Positions 2,517-35,200 of a DNA stretch of 38,432 bases are shown piece after piece. The DNA is taken from positions 1 through 38,432 of the IMG/VR virus record IMGVR_UViG_3300003885_000018; one strand, written 5' to 3'. Below the pieces are notes generated by a model that saw nothing but the letters and a program-made list of their open reading frames with translations, had not been told where the DNA came from and did not search any database. The DNA is from a virus. Positions within the stretch are counted from its first letter, which is position 1, and every line of letters begins with the position of its first letter. Both the position numbers and the translations under genes were made by a program.

Positions 2517-3761
2517 TTATGTTATTATTTTTGGTAAATTAGCTATTATTTCTAACTCTTTATCAAATGTTATATTATTTAATTGTTCTATTAAGCCCCG
2601 AGTCCATGCAAAAGCATGAAGAGATTTCTCAGCTTCAGGCGGCACAGGTTTGGCATAAAAAATGCCTTTCATCGATGCATGTTCAAAGTATAAATATTTC
2701 CTGTCTATGTTATCGTTTAGCCTCATATGAAACAAAGTATAAGTTAATCCTGTTTTATTGTCTTTATAAATATCAAGTTTTTTCGCATTGCTTTTTAATA
2801 ATATTCTATCTGCTCCTATCTTTCTAATTATTTCTCTTTGCACATCTGCATTTTTTTCTTTCAGAGCAAGTTCAGGATTAAGTTTTTCAGCAGGAGTTTC
2901 TACAATTTCTTTCGATACTGTAATACCGTTGAGTGAATATATACCCCATCCGTCCCGCCATTGTGTAGACATTCCTGTTTCGTTATGAAGCTCTCCTTTT
3001 GAATTTCTACAAATTCTGCTTGGTCTATTACAGACTATTATGAAATTTTTATTTGGCCACCAGTAACAGGCTGATTTTTGAGCTAATTCATATGCTTTTA
3101 TTCTTTCCATTATATTTTCTTGAAGTTGCAGTTTACACACGTCAGTAAAAAAAGTAACATATGCTTGCCATGCAACCCGAAATTGTCCTCCCAACCAGCA
3201 ATGCCAAGGTAGTTTGGCTGAACGAACGGCTGAACGAACGGCTGAATCAACGGCTGAATCAACGGGTGAACCAACGGCTGAAAGAATGGCTGAAAGAATG
3301 GCTGGACCAACGGCTGAACGAACGGCTGAACGAACGGCTGAATCAACGGCTGAATCAACGGCTGAAAGAATGGCTAGACCAATGGCTGAACGAACGGTTG
3401 GATCAACGGCTGAATCAACGGCTGAATCAACGGGTGAATCAACGGCTGAATCAACGGGTGAACCAACGGCTGAAAGAATGGCTGGACCAACGGCTGAACG
3501 AACGGGTGAACCAACGGCTGAACGAGATTGTTTTCTTGTCATTGAAGCTTTGGATGCTTCCAGAGCTCCTACAATAGGTGATTGCACTCGTATTATAGGC
3601 ACTTTTTTTAGATTTGCAAATTCATAACATTTATGAACTCCTCTTTCAAAATTATCCCAGTCAGCCTCATCGGTACATAGCCCTATATCAATCCATTTTT
3701 TTATCCATTTGTCAACACGGCTTCTTTCTTTATCAGTCAGCTTGTCTATTCTTGCTTTCAT
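2517..3761 (-). CDS. DUF6745-like protein with SAV repeat domain, 414 aa
   Basis: The N-terminal part (residues 1-75) begins with charged helices and ends at VQSPIVGALEAS. Residues about 80-185 are a string of four-residue units (RSAV, DSAV, GSPV, GPAI and the like) encoded by a 12-base minisatellite. The remainder contains GQFRVAWQAYVTFFTDVC and WRDGWGIYSLNGI, the motifs I associate with the DUF6745 family. The biochemical role of that family is not known to me. The SAV repeats would form a regular small-residue helix or solenoid. The repeat tract is the most slippage-prone coding stretch in the window. Confidence 0.7.
   Translation of the reverse strand: MKARIDKLTDKERSRVDKWIKKWIDIGLCTDEADWDNFERGVHKCYEFANLKKVPIIRVQSPIVGALEASKASMTRKQSRSAVGSPVRSAVGPAILSAVGSPVDSAVDSPVDSAVDSAVDPTVRSAIGLAILSAVDSAVDSAVRSAVRSAVGPAILSAILSAVGSPVDSAVDSAVRSAVRSAKLPWHCWLGGQFRVAWQAYVTFFTDVCKLQLQENIMERIKAYELAQKSACYWWPNKNFIIVCNRPSRICRNSKGELHNETGMSTQWRDGWGIYSLNGITVSKEIVETPAEKLNPELALKEKNADVQREIIRKIGADRILLKSNAKKLDIYKDNKTGLTYTLFHMRLNDNIDRKYLYFEHASMKGIFYAKPVPPEAEKSLHAFAWTRGLIEQLNNITFDKELEIIANLPKIIT
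3217..3528. repeat. 12-base minisatellite, 26 units, coding
   Basis: Twenty-six consecutive 12-base units with few recurring variants (gctgaacgaacg, gctgaatcaacg, ggtgaaccaacg, gctgaaagaatg, gctggaccaacg) fill this stretch without spacers. On the minus strand they encode four-residue units in gene 2517-3761. Because 12 is a multiple of three and units lack stops in several frames, three long open frames on both strands overlap here; only the minus frame continuing into flanking protein is taken as real. Confidence 0.95.
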
Positions 3762-5600: not shown

Positions 5601-6037
5601 TTATACATATCTTTCATTTCTTTGATTCTCTTTTTATATTCTATGGCTTTCTCTTGTAAATCAGCTAAAATGAATTTTACTGATTTTTTATCATTCATCC
5701 TTAATTCTTCTATGATACCTTGACCGTACAGTTTAATCAGGGCATCCATGTAATTGAGGATATTTCCGCAAAGATTAATATTGCAATTATAACATTGAGC
5801 ATGAGTGCCTTTTTCGTAAAAGAGATTAGCATTATGCTTTCCCGGTATAAAATGGCCTGCTTGTAAGAGGGTTCGGGGAACTATTTTGTTACAGGAAATG
5901 CATCTTCCATAATCTGGTAATCCAGTAGTCCTCAAGCAATCTCGCAAACGGATATACTCTGAATATATTTTCCAAGCCTTTTTTTTAACTGTTTTTAATT
6001 TAGGTACTTTTTTTGTTTTCTCTCTCTTTTTTACCAT
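5597..6037 (-). CDS. NinG/Rap-like recombination endonuclease
   Basis: The 146-residue protein has a basic N-terminus, then YIRLRDCLRTTG, CISC, QAGHFIPG, and CYNCN: the zinc-binding HNH-like arrangement of the lambda NinG (Rap) family, which resolves Holliday-like junctions and aids recombination. The first 38 bases overlap the end of the upstream HNH gene, and its end overlaps the 49-residue ribbon gene. A second, truncated copy of its N-terminal domain lies upstream of the HNH gene (6518-6709), indicating that a ninG-type locus was invaded or duplicated. Length is near that expected for a minimal NinG. Confidence 0.85.
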   Translation of the reverse strand: MVKKREKTKKVPKLKTVKKKAWKIYSEYIRLRDCLRTTGLPDYGRCISCNKIVPRTLLQAGHFIPGKHNANLFYEKGTHAQCYNCNINLCGNILNYMDALIKLYGQGIIEELRMNDKKSVKFILADLQEKAIEYKKRIKEMKDMYK

Positions 6038-6527
6038 CTAAATACCCCCTTTTAAAACCATCTTTATATCCTTGATTATGCTCTATAGCGTGTTTTCCTC
6101 GTTTTGTTAGTTCAAGATTTTCTTTCCTATTGTCATCTCTAATGCCGTTTTTGTGATGAATTATTTCATATTTTTTCAAACATCTTTTTAAACTCTTTGC
6201 TATAACCAATCGATGTTCAACAACATAGTTATTACTTGACATAGGATAATAAATGCTATTTTTCCCAACCCAGATATATTTATACCCATAACGGTAATAA
6301 AATCCTCCTTTCCAACAAGGAGATTTTTCGCCTATTCCGTGAAGTCTTTTCACTTTTTGTCTATCAGAACACCTTTTACATTTTGTGCAAGATAGCTTAT
6401 TTTTGACAATTAAGACCCATCTTGGTTTACTGCAAATATTACAAGAACTCCATTCAAATAAGCTACGTTCTCCCCCGCCTCTTTTCTCTATTTCTCTACC
6501 TCTTTTTCTTTCTCCAATTAGTGGCAT
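6000..6527 (-). CDS. HNH homing endonuclease inserted at ninG-like locus
   Basis: The 175-residue protein contains an N-terminal Cys-rich ribbon (CNICSK, CTKCKRC), a NUMOD-type SPCWKGG motif, and a C-terminal HNH core (VVEHRLVIAKSL, then EIIHHKNGIRDDNRKENLEL), where the HH pair and the Asn-Arg-Glu-Asn run are the hallmark catalytic and structural residues. It starts behind a strong TTAGGAGGTGAA site that is itself within the truncated ninG-like frame. Such enzymes cut cognate alleles lacking the insertion. Its 3' end overlaps the complete NinG-like gene. Confidence 0.9.
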   Translation of the reverse strand: MPLIGERKRGREIEKRGGGERSLFEWSSCNICSKPRWVLIVKNKLSCTKCKRCSDRQKVKRLHGIGEKSPCWKGGFYYRYGYKYIWVGKNSIYYPMSSNNYVVEHRLVIAKSLKRCLKKYEIIHHKNGIRDDNRKENLELTKRGKHAIEHNQGYKDGFKRGYLDGKKERENKKST

Positions 6528-8026: not shown

Positions 8027-8584
8027 TTAACCCTCCTTGCGCCCATCAAATATCATTCCTTCTGAATTACAGTAACCTCTTTTGTGAAACCATATATGGT
8101 AAGCGTGATTTTTAAAAACCATTAGATTTTCTATGCGATTATCACCTTTAATCTTATTAATATGGTGAACAACTTCTTCCCTTTTTAAATATCTACCAAT
8201 ATATTTTTCTATTACAATATGATGTTCAAGAATGTAATTACTTTTTGCAAAAGGGTGTTCAGACATGAATATCCACACATATCCATCGCTATTAATGTGT
8301 CTTCCTCCTTTCCAGTTTGGATGGTTTTTGCCTCTGCAATCAAAATGATTTTTACTAATTTTATCTCTTGTTTCTTTAGGAAGCTTTTTACCTTTCCAAA
8401 AACAAGGTTTACCTTTGTTGGCAACACTAATCTTCTTTTTAGTTTCTTCCGGCAACTTTCTTCCTTTGCCTAATCCTTTTCTATTCTTTTTTATCTTAGC
8501 ACAAGTTTTTTCTGAATGATGATAAACACCCTTCAACCCTTTGTTCCAAATCTGTTTTGTTCTTATATAGACCCCTTTAGGCAC
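8027..8584 (-). CDS. NUMOD3/HNH homing endonuclease
   Basis: The start is a GTG at 8582-8584 behind GGAGCCATA and overlaps the nuclease stop. The 185-residue protein has several NUMOD3-type DNA-binding repeats (WNKGLKG, LPEETKKKISVANKGKP, LPKETRDKIS, NHPNWKGG) followed by the HNH core (LEHHIVIEKYIGRYL, EEVVHHINKIKGDNRIENL). It sits between the PD-(D/E)XK nuclease and the DUF1351-like gene, so it may have been inserted into the recombination operon. Likely spreads by cutting insertion-free relatives. Confidence 0.9.
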   Translation of the reverse strand: MPKGVYIRTKQIWNKGLKGVYHHSEKTCAKIKKNRKGLGKGRKLPEETKKKISVANKGKPCFWKGKKLPKETRDKISKNHFDCRGKNHPNWKGGRHINSDGYVWIFMSEHPFAKSNYILEHHIVIEKYIGRYLKREEVVHHINKIKGDNRIENLMVFKNHAYHIWFHKRGYCNSEGMIFDGRKEG

Positions 8585-24998: not shown

Positions 24999-25532
24999 AT
25001 GAAAGCTATAAATCCTAAAGACTTTAAAAGGAAAGATTTTCCTATTATTTGTTTATCAGATAATAGGCGTTCCTTTATAGGCTTTGCTATCAAAGCTCAC
25101 AGTAAAGGACAATACTCCCATGTTATGGAAATCACAGAGAAAGGGTATTTTGCTTCTCAGCAGTTCACAGGCTACAAACGAGTTCCCTATAAAGCATATA
25201 TGAAACCAAACATCACTTTAAAGTTTTTCCGCTATAAAGATATGAATAAAATTCAGAAAACATATTGGATAGACTTAGTTGATAAAGAACTTAAAGAACC
25301 TTGGTGGAGAATAAAGTATGATTTGTTAGGAATACTTGGAATAATATTACCTTTCAAGTGGACTCGTAAACTAAACAACCCTTGGGCAAAATATTGCTCT
25401 GAAAGAGTTGCAGGGCACGAATTAGCGATTATGAAGGTCAATAGAGGTTTACATCCTACGCCTGTAGAGCTAAATAATAAGTATAAGAATGATGAAAATG
25501 TTGAATACCTTGGACACTATTTTTTCGATTGA
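24999..25532 (+). CDS. permuted papain-like (YiiX/NlpC-P60-type) hydrolase, 177 aa
   Basis: ATG 24999 follows GAGGGGG. SKGQYSHVMEIT holds the catalytic His early and WAKYCSERVAGHEL the Cys late, the order of circularly permuted papain-fold enzymes (YiiX/YebB class) that cut amide or ester bonds in cell-wall peptides or lipids. RRSFIGFAIKA fits the strand before the His motif. In phages these lie among tail or lysis genes; here it follows a holin-like gene and precedes a tail adaptor. Confidence 0.7.
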   Translation: MKAINPKDFKRKDFPIICLSDNRRSFIGFAIKAHSKGQYSHVMEITEKGYFASQQFTGYKRVPYKAYMKPNITLKFFRYKDMNKIQKTYWIDLVDKELKEPWWRIKYDLLGILGIILPFKWTRKLNNPWAKYCSERVAGHELAIMKVNRGLHPTPVELNNKYKNDENVEYLGHYFFD

Positions 25533-25546
25533 TAAGGAGGTGAATA

Positions 25547-26203
25547 ATGACTGATGACAGAGATACAATCGTATCAGAAGTAATGGCTGACACCAAACGA
25601 ACAGATAAGCAGACAGCATTAGAGGGTTATTTTGAAGATGCACTTATTGAAATGAGCCAAGCTAAGACTGAAGATGGCGAGCCTATACTCTTGCAAGATT
25701 TAAAAGAAGATGAATCATACTCTATAGTTAGCGGTGATTATTTTAAAGCCTTACCAACTGATTTTGTTTATATGTATTCAAGGCCCGAATTAAGATATGA
25801 CACAGACAAAGGGCGTTTATTAATAAAAAAAGATAGAGAATGGATGGATTGGAACTATCCAAATAGAGCCAACAATACAACCAATAAAAGTAAGCCTTCT
25901 TATTTTTCCTTAGAAGCAGGAAGATTTGATTTTGCACCAATGAGCGATAACAGTTATACGATAATATTTCCACACACAAAACTTCATCCGGTTGCTGCTA
26001 ATAATATTACTACAATTTTATATGGAGATAGATTTAAAACAGTTATTAAAGATTTATTGAAATCTAAGCTATGGGACTTATTAGAAGATTTTGATAAAAG
26101 AGATTTTCATTTTAATAGAGGAATGACAAAACTAAGAGCAGCCGCAATTATAGATAAAAGAAATGCAAGTGATATTTTAATAACTAATTATTCTGATTTA
26201 TAG
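25547..26203 (+). CDS. head-tail/tail adaptor-like protein, 218 aa
   Basis: AAGGAGGTGAATA precedes the ATG. ALPTDFVYMYSRPELRYDTD, YFSLEAGRFDFAPMSDNSYT and the helical ends (TALEGYFEDALIEMSQAK; KLRAAAIIDKRNAS) resemble portal-binding adaptor or tail-tube proteins of short-tailed phages, where an N-terminal helix packs on the portal and a beta domain forms the ring. The gene precedes the fibre-like gene. Assignment is by pattern and position, not by a diagnostic residue. Confidence 0.6.
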   Translation: MTDDRDTIVSEVMADTKRTDKQTALEGYFEDALIEMSQAKTEDGEPILLQDLKEDESYSIVSGDYFKALPTDFVYMYSRPELRYDTDKGRLLIKKDREWMDWNYPNRANNTTNKSKPSYFSLEAGRFDFAPMSDNSYTIIFPHTKLHPVAANNITTILYGDRFKTVIKDLLKSKLWDLLEDFDKRDFHFNRGMTKLRAAAIIDKRNASDILITNYSDL

Positions 26204-26213
26204 GAGGTAAAAG

Positions 26214-28043
26214 ATGAAAAAGTTAAGTTTTGGATTGACGTTTAAGAAATCTATGGTAGTGAAGATGAATACGGTTATTTGGAAACAATATAAGATTCTC
26301 AAGTCTATTATCGTCAACAATACCATTAGTGTGATGCACAACTTCTTCAGGAAGAAGATAACGCTTAAGCAACTTCTCCATCACAAGACGATGTTCGTAA
26401 ACATAATCTCCAGTGGTTTTGTGAGGATGATTAAGTTTATGAATAAGGATATAACCTCTGCTTTTAGCTCTTCCGCCTTTCCAGCTCGGATGTTTCATTC
26501 CTTTGCTTTGGTTATGGCCTTCTTTAAAAGAGCCTTTATTAGTCAATCCTTTCATTCCTTTATTCCAAGCGATCTGGCTCTTATGAGATTCAGAAAGTTT
26601 TTTGCAGTGTTCTTTGGAAAGAGTTCTTCCCTTGGTGGGGGCAGGTTTACCTTCCATAGATTTCCAATAATATTTTTGAGAACAGTAACTTTTATCATGA
26701 GCAGGAATTGTTTCAAAGTTTTTTCCACAAGTAAGGCAATTTTTACTAATTCTTTTTTTGCGGGTTTCGGCTCTGCATTGATTAGAACAAAAAATTGTTT
26801 CAGGATGTTTTTTGTTAAGAAATTCTTTTTGGCAAGTAGGACAGTTTCTTATAGATTATCTCCTTGTTTTAAATTCAGTTTTATTATAGCACTTCTATTT
26901 GTTAGTTGTCACCTGTTTTCTTTGAAAAGTTATGCTTTAAGTAACCTATGGCCTGACAATGACCAAAGAGTTGACGGCTCTGTAGACACGGTTGACGAGC
27001 TTGACGGGTTTATCAATACTCTCTCTTTAGACATACGAGAAAGGCTCTTATCAACAGACGGTGAAACAGTAAAGATAGGGACAAATTGGACTGCTGCAGG
27101 ATTTACTGCTGCCGATTTAGGAACAGTAACCACTGCGGATATAAATGGAGGTACATGGTTAGGTACTATTGACGGTGCGTGGACAGCAGCCAGCCAGACT
27201 TGCGCTGATTTAGGAACTGTAACCACTGCGGATATAGATGGCGGCACTTTAGATAATGTTATCGTAGGAGGCTCAACAGCGTCAGCGGGAACATTTACTA
27301 ACATAATAGGATCAGGTACAGCTACGTTTAATGATTCTAGCAATGCAACGGTATCTCAAATAGATAACGGCGGCACAGGACATGGATTGGAAATAATTGT
27401 AAACGGTGTGCAAGCAACTTCTAAATATGGGTTATCTGTTTCATCTGACGTAGCCCAAGTTAGTTCTTATTTAGTATATATCAATCAAGATAATGCAAGC
27501 TCTAGTCAAGAACCTCTAGTAATTAGAAATGATGGCTCAGGTAATACTATTGTTGGTGAAGGAAATGAAAATTTGTCTAATGCAGGTGTTTGGGTTGATA
27601 GAACTTCTTTCTTTGCTGATAAAGAAAATCTTAGTGCTTTAAATACAAGCGAACTTGTAACTAAACTTAAAAATATGAATTTGTACCGCTACCAAAAAAA
27701 ATGTGAAATCTATGGTAATAAGAGAAAAGACAAAGTAGAGATTACAGAGGAAAAATATGATAAAAAAAATAAAACTCATAAAAAGAGAAAAGGCAAATTT
27801 TATAAAGAAATAGGTGAAGATAAGTTTGGTACAGAGATTATATACCCCAATGCAAAAGAATATGTAGGATTAATACTTGATGATCCTACTACGCCAGAGG
27901 AACTAATCTCAAGAGATTTAGAAGGCAGCATAAATGGAAAATCTGGTACTCAAATTGCTGAGTTTCTATTAGGAGTTTGTAAGCAGCTTATATCTGAAAT
28001 AGATAATCTAAAAAGTAGGATATTAGTATTAGAAACTCCATAA
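26214..28043 (+). CDS. signal-peptide fibre-like protein carrying an antisense HNH insertion, 609 codons
   Basis: A strong TAGGAGGTAAAAG site precedes the ATG. Codons 1-3 (MKK) are followed by about 215 codons that are the exact complement of an HNH gene (26223-26865). At codon 219 a signal-peptide-like FKFSFIIALLFVSCHLFSLK followed by SYALS starts. Then come fibre repeats (ADLGTVTTADINGGT twice, GSGTATFNDSSN) and a C-terminal domain (YVGLILDDPTTPEELIS; AEFLLGVCKQLISEIDNLKS) like the helical end of intramolecular-chaperone fibres. The simplest reading is MKK joined to FKFSF originally, split by the HNH gene but still open. Whether the fused product is made is unknown. Confidence 0.65.
   Translation: MKKLSFGLTFKKSMVVKMNTVIWKQYKILKSIIVNNTISVMHNFFRKKITLKQLLHHKTMFVNIISSGFVRMIKFMNKDITSAFSSSAFPARMFHSFALVMAFFKRAFISQSFHSFIPSDLALMRFRKFFAVFFGKSSSLGGGRFTFHRFPIIFLRTVTFIMSRNCFKVFSTSKAIFTNSFFAGFGSALIRTKNCFRMFFVKKFFLASRTVSYRLSPCFKFSFIIALLFVSCHLFSLKSYALSNLWPDNDQRVDGSVDTVDELDGFINTLSLDIRERLLSTDGETVKIGTNWTAAGFTAADLGTVTTADINGGTWLGTIDGAWTAASQTCADLGTVTTADIDGGTLDNVIVGGSTASAGTFTNIIGSGTATFNDSSNATVSQIDNGGTGHGLEIIVNGVQATSKYGLSVSSDVAQVSSYLVYINQDNASSSQEPLVIRNDGSGNTIVGEGNENLSNAGVWVDRTSFFADKENLSALNTSELVTKLKNMNLYRYQKKCEIYGNKRKDKVEITEEKYDKKNKTHKKRKGKFYKEIGEDKFGTEIIYPNAKEYVGLILDDPTTPEELISRDLEGSINGKSGTQIAEFLLGVCKQLISEIDNLKSRILVLETP
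26223..26852 (-). CDS. antisense HNH homing endonuclease with two zinc knuckles
   Basis: The conventional ATG frame is 26223-26657, but the same frame stays protein-like upstream to 26852: NCPTCQKEF with FCSNQC, and NCLTCGKNF with SYCSQKYYWK, giving two Cys-rich knuckles. The only start near an AAGGAG site (26860-26865) is ATA at 26850-26852; an ATG may have been lost. The rest has NUMOD3-type repeats (KHPSWKGG) and the HNH core (YEHRLVMEKLLKRYL, EEVVHHTNGIVDDNRLENL). It contains no TTA, CTA or TCA codons, since the plus frame in the same register is open throughout. Confidence 0.8.
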   Translation of the reverse strand: MRNCPTCQKEFLNKKHPETIFCSNQCRAETRKKRISKNCLTCGKNFETIPAHDKSYCSQKYYWKSMEGKPAPTKGRTLSKEHCKKLSESHKSQIAWNKGMKGLTNKGSFKEGHNQSKGMKHPSWKGGRAKSRGYILIHKLNHPHKTTGDYVYEHRLVMEKLLKRYLLPEEVVHHTNGIVDDNRLENLILFPNNRIHLHYHRFLKRQSKT

Positions 28044-28083
28044 AGAAGCAGGCTATATGGCTGTTAAAATTAGAAAAAAACTA

Positions 28084-28557
28084 TTAATTATATTTTTTTC
28101 TATTAGAAGGTTTCCCTTCCATAGATTTCCAGCAGCATTTTTGGTTACAATACTTTTTGTTATAAGAGAGAATTGTACCAAAACTTTTGTTACAGTTAAG
28201 ACATTTTTTAAAAATTCTTTTTTGGGGATTATGGAATTTAGTATGTTTATAGGCATTAGCAAACAATTCCAAGTTTTCAGGGCTATCATCTTTCTTATTG
28301 GCAATACTTTTAATAGGAAAATGGATACCTCTATGATGAACGATTTCTCCAAGCCTAAGATAGCGTCCAATCATCTTTTCCATAATAATATGACTTCTAA
28401 GAACATAGTTGGTAGTGCCACAAAAGGGATGAGAAGGTTTATAAACAAGAATATAACCATGACTTATTATTTCTCCACCTTTCCAATTAGGATGATTCTT
28501 ACCAGATATTTCAGGGCGTTTTTTACTTTTCATACGTTCATAAATTCCACTTGGCAT
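28084..28557 (-). CDS. antisense HNH homing endonuclease with C-terminal zinc knuckle
   Basis: The ATG at 28555-28557 follows GGAGGTAAAA. Order: NUMOD-type NHPNWKGG, then the HNH core (RSHIIMEKMIGRYL, GEIVHHRGIHF, DDSPENLEL) and a C-terminal knuckle CLNCNKSFGT with YCNQKCCWKSMEGKP. That last block is the same motif found N-terminal to the HNH in 26223-26852, so domain order is swapped. The plus-strand frame 28057-28671 in codon register is fully open, so this gene too avoids TTA, CTA and TCA. Confidence 0.85.
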   Translation of the reverse strand: MPSGIYERMKSKKRPEISGKNHPNWKGGEIISHGYILVYKPSHPFCGTTNYVLRSHIIMEKMIGRYLRLGEIVHHRGIHFPIKSIANKKDDSPENLELFANAYKHTKFHNPQKRIFKKCLNCNKSFGTILSYNKKYCNQKCCWKSMEGKPSNRKKYN

Positions 28558-28700
28558 TTTTACCTCCAGAATAGAAAAGCGCTTTTCAGGTTGTTACAGG
28601 ATTCACGGTTAAGTGTTTCCACCTTACTCAGCGCTTTCAATTTTAGACAAAAAAATCCGTTAACCCTGTAACTAATCTTATTATAACAGGAGTATTTTAA
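28558..28700 (+). other. spacer with palindrome and long inverted repeat
   Basis: A perfect 14-base palindrome (28574-28587, GAAAAGCGCTTTTC) and an imperfect 15-base inverted repeat (28594-28608 with 28657-28671, 13 of 15 paired) lie between the HNH gene and the next tail gene. They could be the HNH promoter/terminator or its target site. No gene is evident; a plus-strand frame crossing it is regarded as a shadow. Confidence 0.4.
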
Positions 28701-30233
28701 ATGGCAATACAAACAAAAAAGAAAGGACTCATAATTCCTATATTGACTCTTGACACCTCAACTCCTTCAACTCTCATTGATCAGAGACAATCTCCAAATA
28801 TGCAAAATGTACGAATTGAAAGAAAACAAATAAAAAAGAAAGAAGGGTATTCTACATTAGGCGGAACTTCTACAGGTGATATTCAGTTTATATCTGAAAT
28901 TGATAGAGAAGGTGAGTTATATTTATTTCGTATATCTACACGCAAATTTGACTCATTAAACACGGTATCAGGTGTTTGGACTGACCGTACAAACGGTAAC
29001 TTAGGAGGTACAACTAAAAGGCCCGTAAGCTCTACCATAGCCAAAATAAGCGGAAAGAATATAGTAGTATTTACTAATTCAGTTGATGTTATTAAGAAAT
29101 GGGCAGGAGGCACAAACAATATAGCGGATTTAGGAGGAAGCCCTCCTAAAGCTAGATATATATTAGAGTTCAATAGATTCGTATTAGCGGCTTACGTGAT
29201 AGAAGGGGCCTCAATCTTCCCTGAGAGGGTGCAGTGGGCTGATTATGATGATCCTGAGAGTTGGACAGAGTCAACAGCAAGTAACGCAGGAAGCGGTGAT
29301 TTAGGCGGTGGAGAGGCTATTACAGGTATGTTTAGACTCGGCAACAATGTAGTAGTTACAAAGCAAGACAGTATTTGGGTAGGCTATTTAACCGGTGATG
29401 ATAGGGTATTCCAATTTGACGCTGTAGAGAGGAATATAGGCTTTATGGTAAACAATACCATAAAGGTGATACCCGGGGGCTTAGCGATAGGATTAAGTAA
29501 GCATGGGCTAATCCAATTTAATGGTGCAAGAGCGCAAACAATAGCACCCGGAATATTTGAAGATTTAAGAGATAATCTAAACGCTGACCTTTTACAAAAA
29601 TCTTTTGCAGTTATCATGACTCAATTAAATGAATACTGGTTATATATTGTAATAACGGGTCAGACATATCCTACAAGGCTATATAGATATAATTATGCTA
29701 CAGGACAAGTATATAAAGATTTAGTGACTAATATCACAGCAGCGGGTTTATATACGAAACTACCGAATAAAGAATTAATCGACAATGTAACAGATGTTAT
29801 AAATACTAAAACAACAGTCATCGATGCAGCTATAGTAGACGTTCTTTATCCGACATTGGTTTTGGGAGATAAAGACAGCCAGACTTATAAATTTGATTTT
29901 GATTTAAAAAATGAAAATGGAGTTGCCATAAATGCCTTTTGGGATACTTCGGATATAACTCCTTTCCCCGGATATTACTCACATTGGACTGAATTATTCT
30001 TTGAAGGCTTAGGTGATACAGTTACGATACAATATTCAACAGATGAGGGAGTTACGTATACAACGCTTGAGACTATAACATTGACAGCTAGTATGGCGGC
30101 TTATGCAGTATATATTGATGTTCTTTCAGAGAAATTAAGAATAAGGGTTTCTAATGCTGTTGTGAGCGAAACATTTACTATGAGAAATTTATATTATAAA
30201 CAACCAATTCAAAGAGAGGCTATAGAAAAATAA
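28701..30233 (+). CDS. propeller-like tail protein (P22 gp10-like hub), 510 aa
   Basis: The sequence begins with SPNMQNVRIERKQIKKKEGY, TSTGDIQFISEIDREGELYL and many repeated beta blades (RPVSSTIAKISGKNIVVFTN; IGLSKHGLIQFNGARAQTI; VQWADYDDPESWTE), the style of the beta-propeller stabilisation or hub proteins of short-tailed phages such as P22 gp10. It would plug or extend the portal. AACAGGAGTATTTTAA is the ribosome site. MAIQTKKKGLII at its start resembles MAVKIRKKLLII at 28057, a possible remnant left by the HNH insertion. Confidence 0.75.
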   Translation: MAIQTKKKGLIIPILTLDTSTPSTLIDQRQSPNMQNVRIERKQIKKKEGYSTLGGTSTGDIQFISEIDREGELYLFRISTRKFDSLNTVSGVWTDRTNGNLGGTTKRPVSSTIAKISGKNIVVFTNSVDVIKKWAGGTNNIADLGGSPPKARYILEFNRFVLAAYVIEGASIFPERVQWADYDDPESWTESTASNAGSGDLGGGEAITGMFRLGNNVVVTKQDSIWVGYLTGDDRVFQFDAVERNIGFMVNNTIKVIPGGLAIGLSKHGLIQFNGARAQTIAPGIFEDLRDNLNADLLQKSFAVIMTQLNEYWLYIVITGQTYPTRLYRYNYATGQVYKDLVTNITAAGLYTKLPNKELIDNVTDVINTKTTVIDAAIVDVLYPTLVLGDKDSQTYKFDFDLKNENGVAINAFWDTSDITPFPGYYSHWTELFFEGLGDTVTIQYSTDEGVTYTTLETITLTASMAAYAVYIDVLSEKLRIRVSNAVVSETFTMRNLYYKQPIQREAIEK

Positions 30234-32276: not shown

Positions 32277-35200
32277 ATGGGAAATCCATTTGCAAATATT
32301 GTACAAAATAGCCCTAGCACTTTTGGCAAAAAAACAAAAACATTTGAAGGGTGGAGAAGTAAGCCTTATCAAGACCCCGGAGGCAGCAATAGATCTATAG
32401 CTTGGGGTTTTAATATTGATGAACCAAGCGTAGCAACCCTTTTATCTCCAGATGTGTTAGCAGGAAAAAGAGACATAACAAAAGAAGAAGCTGAACCAAT
32501 ATTTCGGCTTAAATATCAGCAAGCTCAAAGTGAAGCAGGTACATATTTAGGTGGAAACCTTATTAACGAAATTCCTGAAGAGGCTAAAGACGTAATAGTT
32601 GATTTAACTTACAATATGGGGTATCCAACTATTTCAGAATTTAAAAATCTTAGACAGGCTATAGAAAATAAAGATTGGAATAAGGCAGCAGACGAATTAG
32701 AAAATAGTAATTGGTACAAGCAAACAGGAAATAGGGCAAAAACTCATGTTAATACTCTAAGGAAATTAGCACTTAAAAAGAATGATCAACAATCTTCATT
32801 GATTGACTTTTTCCTACCTTCCGCTCAAGCAAAAGAGATAAATAACCCCTTTAAAGCCATAGTCACTAAAGATACTGAAAATCCATTTTCTGAGGTAATC
32901 GCTTCTGATAATTCTTTTTCTGAAATCTCTAAAATTACCGAAGATACCAAAAAGAAAAAATCTTTGTTGAATGATATTTATTATGGTGTTCAATCGGGAA
33001 TATCAAGAACTTGGGCTAATGTGTGGAGAACTCCTGCGGCCGTTTATGATATAATCTCTATGCCTACTAATTTTATGTTGAAAGTAATAGGCAAGCCGGA
33101 ATGGCAAGCTAAATCTCCTGATTGGCTAATGAATAATCCTATGGCTAAATGGAATGATTATTTTGCTAACGAGTTTGAGAAAGAAATTACTCCAACCAAA
33201 ACATTGGAAGAAGCTTTTGAAACTAAAGATTTTGATAATATTGGTAGACACTTAGCAATACAGGTTGCTAAAAATGCCCCTCAGCAATTAGCACTAATAG
33301 CTAGTTATATGGTAGGTTATCCGGGAACAGGTTTAGCCGGAATGGGTTTGTTACAAGCTACTCAAGCTTTACAGGAAACCAGAGATAAAGACCCTGCTAT
33401 GAGTGCATACAACGCCCTAGCGCAAGGCGTGATAGAGGTAGGGTTTGAAAGCATAGGTATTGGCATAATAAGCAATTGGAGTAAAGTTTTAAGAAAAAGT
33501 TTTGGCACTAAAAATGCTTTAAAAATAATCGGTGATGTTTTCAAGACGATAATTAACTCTATAGCAGGTGAAGGATGGAGTGAAGGATTAACATCTTTAG
33601 CCCAAGACTTCTCAAGTTTTGTTACTGGAATGAATGATAAAGCTATGAAGGGTTCATTGCCGAGGGCCTTTGAGAGTGCGGCAGTAGGAGCAATATCAGG
33701 GGGGTTATTGACGGGCCCCGCAGCTATAGGAACAGGCATAAAAAGCGCCGAATACAAGAAACTCTCTGATATAGAGCAAAGACAGCCAGAGAACATTGTA
33801 GAAACCCTTCAAATTAAGCCAGAACAAGCCGAAATTGAAGAGTTAAAGCCTAAAGCCGAGCCAAAGACGATTGAGGCAGAAAATGCTCTTATAGAGGAAG
33901 CTAAGAAGTTTGGAGTAAGATATAGTCCAGAAATAAAAGATAAAGTAATTAAACTTTATTCACAAGGGAAATCGTCAACACAAATTTCAAGTGAATTGGG
34001 GATTAGTTCATCTGCTATCTTGAATATTGCTGATAAAGCTGGGATTAAAAGAACGATTAGTCAATCTAAAATATTATATGAAAAAGATATTCCAAAAGTT
34101 ATTGAATTATACAAACAAGGAAAAAGTATTTATAAAATTGGGGAAGATTTAAGCCTTGCTCCTTCTTCTATCGCAAGGTGGGTTAAAGAAGCCGGTATAA
34201 CAAGAACAGCAAGCGAAGCACAAGGAGCAAAATCGGAAGATATTATAAAAGCAATAGACTTATATAAAAGTGGCAAAAGCACTATCGAGATAGGCAAAGA
34301 GTTAGGGTATAGTAAAGGTGCGATATGGAGATGGGTTAATAATGTTGGTGAAAATAGAAGTCAAAGCGAAGCTCGTTCAATTCTTGCCGAAGAAGGAAGA
34401 TTAAATTTACGAAGTGTAAAAAGTAGTGTAAAAACCAAATCTGGAGAAATTAAAGCAGATAGTGCTTATGAGGCGGCGAGAATTAAACAATTAGATAAAG
34501 ACAATAATGTTATTGAAATAAAAAGAGCAAAAAGAATACCTTTCGGCAATAAGTCATATATACCTGATTTAGAAATTAAATATTCTGATGGAAAAATAAT
34601 CATAGAAGAAATAAAAGCAGATTATAAGAAAGGTGATGAAAATGTAATTGCTAAAGAAAAAGCCGCAAAGGAATACTATAAAGATAAAAATATTGAATAT
34701 CGTATAATTACCGAAAATGATATAGGTATAAATGCTTTTTCAAATATTCATATAGATGATTTGACTTTTACAAACGAAGTTGACAAATCCAGATTTAATC
34801 AAGCCATCAAAAGCGTAAGAGCTATTTTATCTAAACAGCAAGCGCAGATTAAACCTTCCCCTTCACCCGGAGTATCCGGAGTATATGGATATACAGTACC
34901 TGCAGGAATAGTTGCAGAAGGCGGTTATGGTACTATAGAACCAAACGAGAAAGCAACTAGAGAAAAGATAGCCAAAACTGACTATTCTAAGATAGCAGAG
35001 GATATACCTGTTCAAGAGTTCAGTGTTGTAGATGAGGTATTGAAGATTACATCGCCGGCAGAGCGCAAAGGTGCTTTAATTGGAAAGAAAGTTCTCCGTA
35101 AAAACATAGCTGACTTAGCACATAAAGATGTTGCTGCAGTAGAAACTTTGAAAAAAACGCATAAGGCTTTTAAGTGGATGAATAAAGAAGATAGTTTAGA

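Follow-up and report, generated by a model that had tools for sequence, protein, structure and literature searches.

Two HNH endonuclease genes inserted antisense in the late operon of a phage contain none of the codons that, read codon-aligned from the operon strand, would be stops. They are best explained as translation-transparent homing genes, such that ribosomes on the operon mRNA would cross each insert (a reading to which we give a probability of about two in three). The window, i.e. the whole stretch of DNA analysed, is the 38,432-base virus record IMGVR_UViG_3300003885_000018. An earlier sequence-only reading of the window had noted the absence of TTA, CTA and TCA from both genes and had proposed selection for, or origin in, frame-preserving antisense insertion; the absence is confirmed, and comparison with relatives supports the proposal in part and refines it, since the absence is a property of the antisense context and not of the HNH family.

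Two antisense HNH genes and their opposite frames

The first gene, HNH1 (26223-26855, minus strand), is codon-aligned with the plus-strand ORF 26214-28043, and the second, HNH2 (28084-28557, minus strand), with the plus-strand ORF 28057-28671; each ORF is stop-free across the whole HNH gene. The genes, the ORFs and their exact register are thus present as the sequence-only reading had described them, and the counts of stop-making codons are zero in both genes. HNH1 uses neither TTA nor CTA among its 17 leucine codons (14 CTT and 3 TTG) and no TCA among 14-15 serine codons, and all three codons are likewise absent from the 8 leucine and 12 serine codons of HNH2. In the rest of the phage, TTA and CTA make up 56% of leucine codons and TCA 26% of serine codons, a usage from which approximately 13 stop-making codons are expected in HNH1 and 7 in HNH2 (probability of none, ~1e-8 and ~4e-5, respectively). 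The remaining two plus-strand frames contain 16-18 stops opposite HNH1 and 13-14 opposite HNH2. Two same-strand relatives in the window, both located on the early strand, serve as internal controls: HNH8 (8027-8584, minus strand) contains five TTA, CTA or TCA codons and HNH6 (6000-6527, minus strand) contains eight, each equivalent to an in-register stop.

The assignment of both genes is based on profile matches. HNH1, which carries an N-terminal zinc-ribbon part, matches PHROG HNH families (E=7.8e-20), with a match to Pfam HNH_3 just under the cut-off (E=3.7e-5), while HNH2 matches a PHROG HNH family (E=6.9e-16) and gives no match to Pfam HNH_3. The conserved columns of the HNH catalytic core (HH...N...D.R.ENL; family HNH_3 / PHROG 20891) are found in both proteins. 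Foldseek comparison of the AlphaFold model of HNH1 (pLDDT 84) returned nothing significant, I-HmuI being matched at merely E=2.6, and a profile search of solved structures likewise gave nothing significant.

The open frames could instead be a by-product of foreign codon bias, the genes stemming from a source that dislikes A-ending codons. Consistent with this, the control codons ATA, GTA, ACA, CCA and GCA are also scarce in HNH1 (5 against 17.2 expected) and HNH2 (5 against 14.1 expected). When this bias is taken into account, the absence of TTA, CTA and TCA has a probability of 0.06 in HNH1 and 0.14 in HNH2, so for these two genes composition could go some way towards explaining the absence. 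Because the control codons are scarce, the window alone cannot separate selection from bias, and it is the relatives that discriminate between the two.

Codon depletion among HNH relatives

Relatives (referred to here by L numbers) were gathered by protein patterns independent of codon choice, which yielded 274 ORFs in 179 clusters at 65% identity. The expected number of TTA, CTA and TCA codons was derived for each relative from genes of the same contig, and, with inteins set aside, each relative was assigned a context by its strand relative to flanking genes of 300 nt or more, as predicted by a simple ORF caller. The 26 clusters antisense to both neighbours contained 69 stop-making codons, compared with 162.0 expected, whereas the 84 clusters on the same strand as both neighbours contained 729, compared with 641.7 expected. 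An observed-to-expected ratio below 0.5 was found in 17 of the 26 antisense clusters, as opposed to 4 of the 84 same-strand clusters (Fisher P = 3.3e-10; 3.9e-9 without the window). Stop-making codons were completely absent from 11 antisense clusters (0.53 expected) and from one same-strand cluster (1.04 expected). Homologues thus do use TTA, CTA and TCA freely when they lie on the same strand as their neighbours, but mostly not when they lie antisense.

The control codons showed no comparable effect, with observed-to-expected ratios of 1.00 in antisense and 1.13 in same-strand context. Per codon, the three antisense registers contained 0.014, 0.053 and 0.065 stops in antisense context and 0.045, 0.042 and 0.051 in same-strand context, and the median longest open run covered 95% of the gene in the former, against 30% in the latter. 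Since the control codons and the other registers are unaffected, the depletion is restricted to stop-making codons, to a single register and to antisense context. Outside the window, the 15 depleted antisense genes contain 7 stop-making codons where 87.2 are expected, together with a normal number of control codons (175 against 170.2). These relatives, and the same-strand relatives that lack depletion, refute foreign codon bias as the whole explanation for the group; it is an improbable account of the finding, although it may have contributed in HNH1 and HNH2. The notion that the absence is expected from composition therefore fails for the relatives. Selection against stop-making codons, the core of what the sequence-only reading had proposed as selection for frame-preserving antisense insertion, is well supported by this specificity for context, stop codons and register, as well as by several origins in the tree described below.

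Two further sources of the signal were rejected. A codon bias of the whole family is ruled out by the same-strand relatives, HNH6 and HNH8 among them, which use TTA, CTA and TCA, and an artefact of counting a bridge ORF as a neighbouring gene was removed by requiring flanks of at least 300 or 450 nt, with which the result stands. Chance in a small set selected by a reader deserves consideration, given that the feature was chosen after looking and that antisense context was taken from a simple ORF caller; with a survey picked by protein similarity alone, and with the Fisher probability obtained without the window, we regard it as barely credible. The depletion is not universal. Approximately one third of the antisense relatives are not open (L222, L176, L105, L106, L204 and L048, as well as L265 and L110, which lie farther from neighbouring genes), and L222 groups with HNH1. 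A survey of 396 genomes of the phylum to which the L100 genome belongs gave only one new match, too few to replicate the result.

A FastTree phylogeny of all clusters, poorly resolved with its 144 columns, supports the open-antisense state having arisen several times: this label changes 16 times on the tree, and at least six of the changes are forced by supported branches. HNH8, which uses TTA, CTA and TCA, clusters at a support of 82 with a gene of L220 that is antisense and open. There are only seven independent pairs on supported branches (3.8 for and 1.1 against), a comparison that is not significant alone.

A further set of 13 clusters (L158, L261, L191, L254, L285, L178, L292, L287, L263, L241, L268, L270 and L101) has no stops in another antisense register, with 2-14 in the codon-aligned one. 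Their opposite strand encodes intein-like ORFs, namely terminase large subunits or similar ones, and Pfam recognized intein splicing domains in four of the five clusters tested. An isolate case is provided by Pectobacterium phage Ymer (L295), whose HNH gene of 232 codons has 11, 11 and 0 stops in the antisense registers. It lies inside a CDS annotated as hypothetical, which has a match to Terminase_6 and one to an intein domain, the latter under the curated cut-off; the annotation carries the antisense ORF only and leaves out the HNH gene. HNH1 and HNH2 are not intein-borne, as Pfam found no intein domain or motif in 26214-28043 or 28057-28671, and no group I intron RNA was found by Rfam at 25500-29500.

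Host gene, bridge ORF and insert ends

HNH1 interrupts a gene encoding a tail-region protein of unassigned family. The host ORF (26214-28043, plus strand) begins with an AGGAGG and ATGAAAAAGTTA (MKKL), runs in frame through the antisense of HNH1 and then enters a signal peptide, FKFSFIIALLFVSCHLFSLKSYA, and the remainder of the protein. The insert length is a multiple of three, and the TAA stop of HNH1 is the complement of host codon 4, TTA. The part of the host gene 3' of HNH1 (26868-28043, plus strand) has a conserved N-terminal region and is 37% and 31% identical to the uninterrupted homologues L012 (2313-3092) and L013 (5669-7033), which belong to phages only moderately related to that of the window. 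Both empty and occupied alleles of the site are therefore represented, the host gene of HNH1 being intact in L012 and L013 and HNH2 also being absent from L013. The fused layout recurs in another signal-peptide protein in the distant contig L100, where MKRIIL is followed by an antisense HNH, a hydrophobic segment and SNLW.

No ATG, GTG or TTG start is present in HNH1 before 26657. Its start is probably the ATA at 26850-26852 (minus strand), located 7 nt after an AAGGAG ribosome site (26860-26865), and the matching position in its relatives is ATG (L100 begins MQKTCPVC). With this ATA start and no canonical codon, HNH1 may have low expression or be undergoing decay, with the antisense frame preserved. 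A sigma-70-like promoter on the minus strand (GTGACA-18-TATAAT, 26883-26912; 11 of 12 consensus bases) lies antisense within the signal-peptide codons of the host gene.

Of the two open frames noted in the sequence-only reading, only the one opposite HNH1 belongs to a host gene, the insert following the MKKL of a signal-peptide gene. HNH2, preceded by a GGAGG at 28563-28567, sits between genes, where it directly follows a shortened version of the next gene's beginning. The plus-strand ORF opposite HNH2 and its leader (28057-28671) forms a bridge that opens 13 nt past the upstream stop and closes 29 nt short of the next start. The opening codons of this ORF (MAVKIRKK) are similar to the beginning of the gene that follows (MAIQTKKK), and homologous starts are found in L012 and L013. 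That next gene (28701-30233, plus strand) encodes a virion structural protein (PHROG 3287, E=2.1e-37), and a scan of viral contigs with this protein found no relatives. In L013, which has neither insert, the genes flanking the HNH2 site overlap as TAATG. The sigma-70-like promoter of HNH2 (TTGCCA-16-TATAAT, 28680-28707, minus strand; 11 of 12 consensus bases) has as its -35 box the complement of the start of the next gene (ATGGCAA). No terminators were predicted around HNH1 or HNH2.

A pseudoknotted 5' leader RNA (28574-28676, minus strand; covariance-model match of 91.5 bits, the sequence itself being in the seed) separates the HNH2 promoter from the gene start and combines a 14-pair stem with a crossing 10-pair stem. 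In an alignment of six sequences, 96.5% of cells are paired, and two-sided changes affect 16 of the 24 pairs, a number that none of 500 shuffles reached. Further copies accompany L012, L019/L142, L220 (two), L223 and L147/L148 (two). A comparison with Rfam gave no family match; a weak SAM-III match inside HNH2, far under the cut-off, was taken as chance. In L147/L148, the second leader copy is upstream of a gene unlike HNH, and in L012 (3148-3290, minus strand) a decayed HNH remnant with an RNA leader stands where the window has HNH2.

Most open antisense frames among the relatives are similar bridges, which start at or near the upstream stop and end at or near the next start (several of these distances were determined by visual inspection of the sequence). 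At the 5' end, the bridge is coupled to the upstream gene by ATGA in L142 and L145, by TAATG in L271 and by TTGA with AAGGAGG in L146. At the 3' end, ATGA occurs in L223, the first copy of L220 and L142, TAATG in L284, and TAA followed by ATG in L226, while in L065, L155, L271, L231 and L282 the bridge overlaps the next gene. In other cases a gap separates bridge and next start: 10-14 nt in L145, L221 and L146, 29 nt for HNH2, and approximately 33-51 nt in the second copy of L220, L023 and L230. In-frame fusion to a host gene is found in HNH1 and L100, and apparently in L273.

These ends bear on what the open frame is for. If it served only to preserve a host protein, as in the ShiLan element with its fused host protein, and not translation between genes, fusions such as HNH1, L100 and apparently L273 would be the expected form; most open cases, HNH2 included, instead stop at or near the next start and are unfused, which makes this account unlikely. 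The antisense ORF might also be a true overlapping gene with a useful protein, since it is long and open and its start codon is often coupled to the upstream gene. Yet the frame in L012 is partly open despite a decayed HNH, without a good start, and lengths, starts and ends vary among the bridges, so a useful product appears very improbable.

In some cases the beginning of the next gene also occurs, cut short, in the left flank: MAVKIRKK precedes and MAIQTKKK follows HNH2, MPVRTRKN and MAVKTMKE surround the decayed HNH of L012, and the HNH of L109 (~2806-3411) has an incomplete DNA-methylase start on one side and a complete one on the other, so that the methylase N-terminus occurs on both sides. 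Such truncated starts are presumably remnants of the recipient left by homing. At the other end, inspection by eye places the antisense HNH promoter so that its -35 box covers or adjoins the start codon of the following gene (ATGTCAA or TGTCAATG) in L065, L282, L145, L142, L220, L271 and the window (28701-28707), and this box may mark the right end of the element. Elsewhere in the window, a 1924-residue virion protein with an N-terminal lysozyme domain contains, in frame, several helix-turn-helix domains and a TnsA-like nuclease domain (33915-34715, plus strand), perhaps a homing-type insert.

Proposed translation across the inserts and comparison with known systems

The preferred reading, that of translation-transparent antisense homing genes, assumes that homing-type HNH genes with their own promoters were inserted antisense into a phage late operon, and that selection then stripped them of TTA, CTA and TCA, which are operon-strand stops in the codon-aligned register. 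Every protein can be encoded with this antisense register open and its amino acids unchanged, which holds for no other antisense register, because only leucine and serine are affected and both have synonymous codons; some adjacent amino-acid pairs force stops in the other registers, so selection is expected to act in the codon-aligned one. The operon mRNA could then be translated straight across the insert. In HNH1, the start and ribosome site of the host gene would be read in frame via the insert into the remaining gene, and the antisense-encoded stretch, which precedes the signal peptide, could be cut off by signal peptidase. In HNH2, the bridge ORF would carry ribosomes from past the upstream stop to shortly before the next start. 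The purpose of the selection would presumably lie in a ribosome-covered mRNA free of Rho-dependent polarity and in neighbours that remain translationally coupled, making the insert cheap for the host; in the fused cases the host protein itself would be a further benefit. Both the translation of the bridge and the homing activity of HNH1 and HNH2 are implied by this scheme. Slightly less firmly, we also favour a general class of HNH genes that were repeatedly inserted backwards in phage operons and evolved a stop-free antisense frame with a coupled start and stop, paralleled by the antisense HNH genes of terminase inteins, in which another register is kept open.

The sequence-only reading knew of no described class of such genes. 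A related case has been described: in the ShiLan element, DNA methylase genes of actinophages conceal an out-of-frame HNH (Arsenault et al. 2025, PMC11855218), which is approximately 44% identical to that of L226 over ~86 residues. As with HNH1 (26214-28043), a phage gene has taken up a homing-type HNH without its frame being closed. However, the ShiLan HNH shares the strand of its host gene and is read in a different frame, whereas HNH1 and HNH2 are antisense and codon-aligned; the antisense cases, moreover, usually have their own promoter and are mostly bridges between genes, whereas ShiLan is inside one gene. The ShiLan paper makes no mention of an antisense arrangement (PMC11855218).

Free-standing homing genes (mob, seg) of T4-like phages are similarly small nuclease genes lodged between structural genes, and their effects on coupling and promoters have been discussed (PMC2988022). 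All are oriented as their neighbours except segD, in a region where terminators have been reported (PMC2988022). The antisense GIY-YIG gene segD (L305, 3062-3733, minus strand) has nine in-register antisense stops and is not open. In phage terminase inteins, a homing nuclease lies inside a host ORF that stays open, and the active ones carry a sense-strand LAGLIDADG nuclease (Kelley et al. 2016, PMC5050341), in contrast to the antisense HNH genes in the inteins of the relatives surveyed here. Full-text searches of openly available journal papers gave no account of an HNH gene placed antisense to an open host frame or within an intein.

If this reading is correct, a selfish gene has been selected at synonymous sites for the reading of the opposite strand and consequently does less harm to its host. 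Long antisense ORFs opposite HNH genes would be explained as something other than chance. They would also call for caution in annotation, as gene callers may report a bridge or a fused host ORF as if it were a genuine protein and overlook the HNH gene (compare Ymer). The arrangement additionally offers a clear way to test what untranslated inserts cost an operon.
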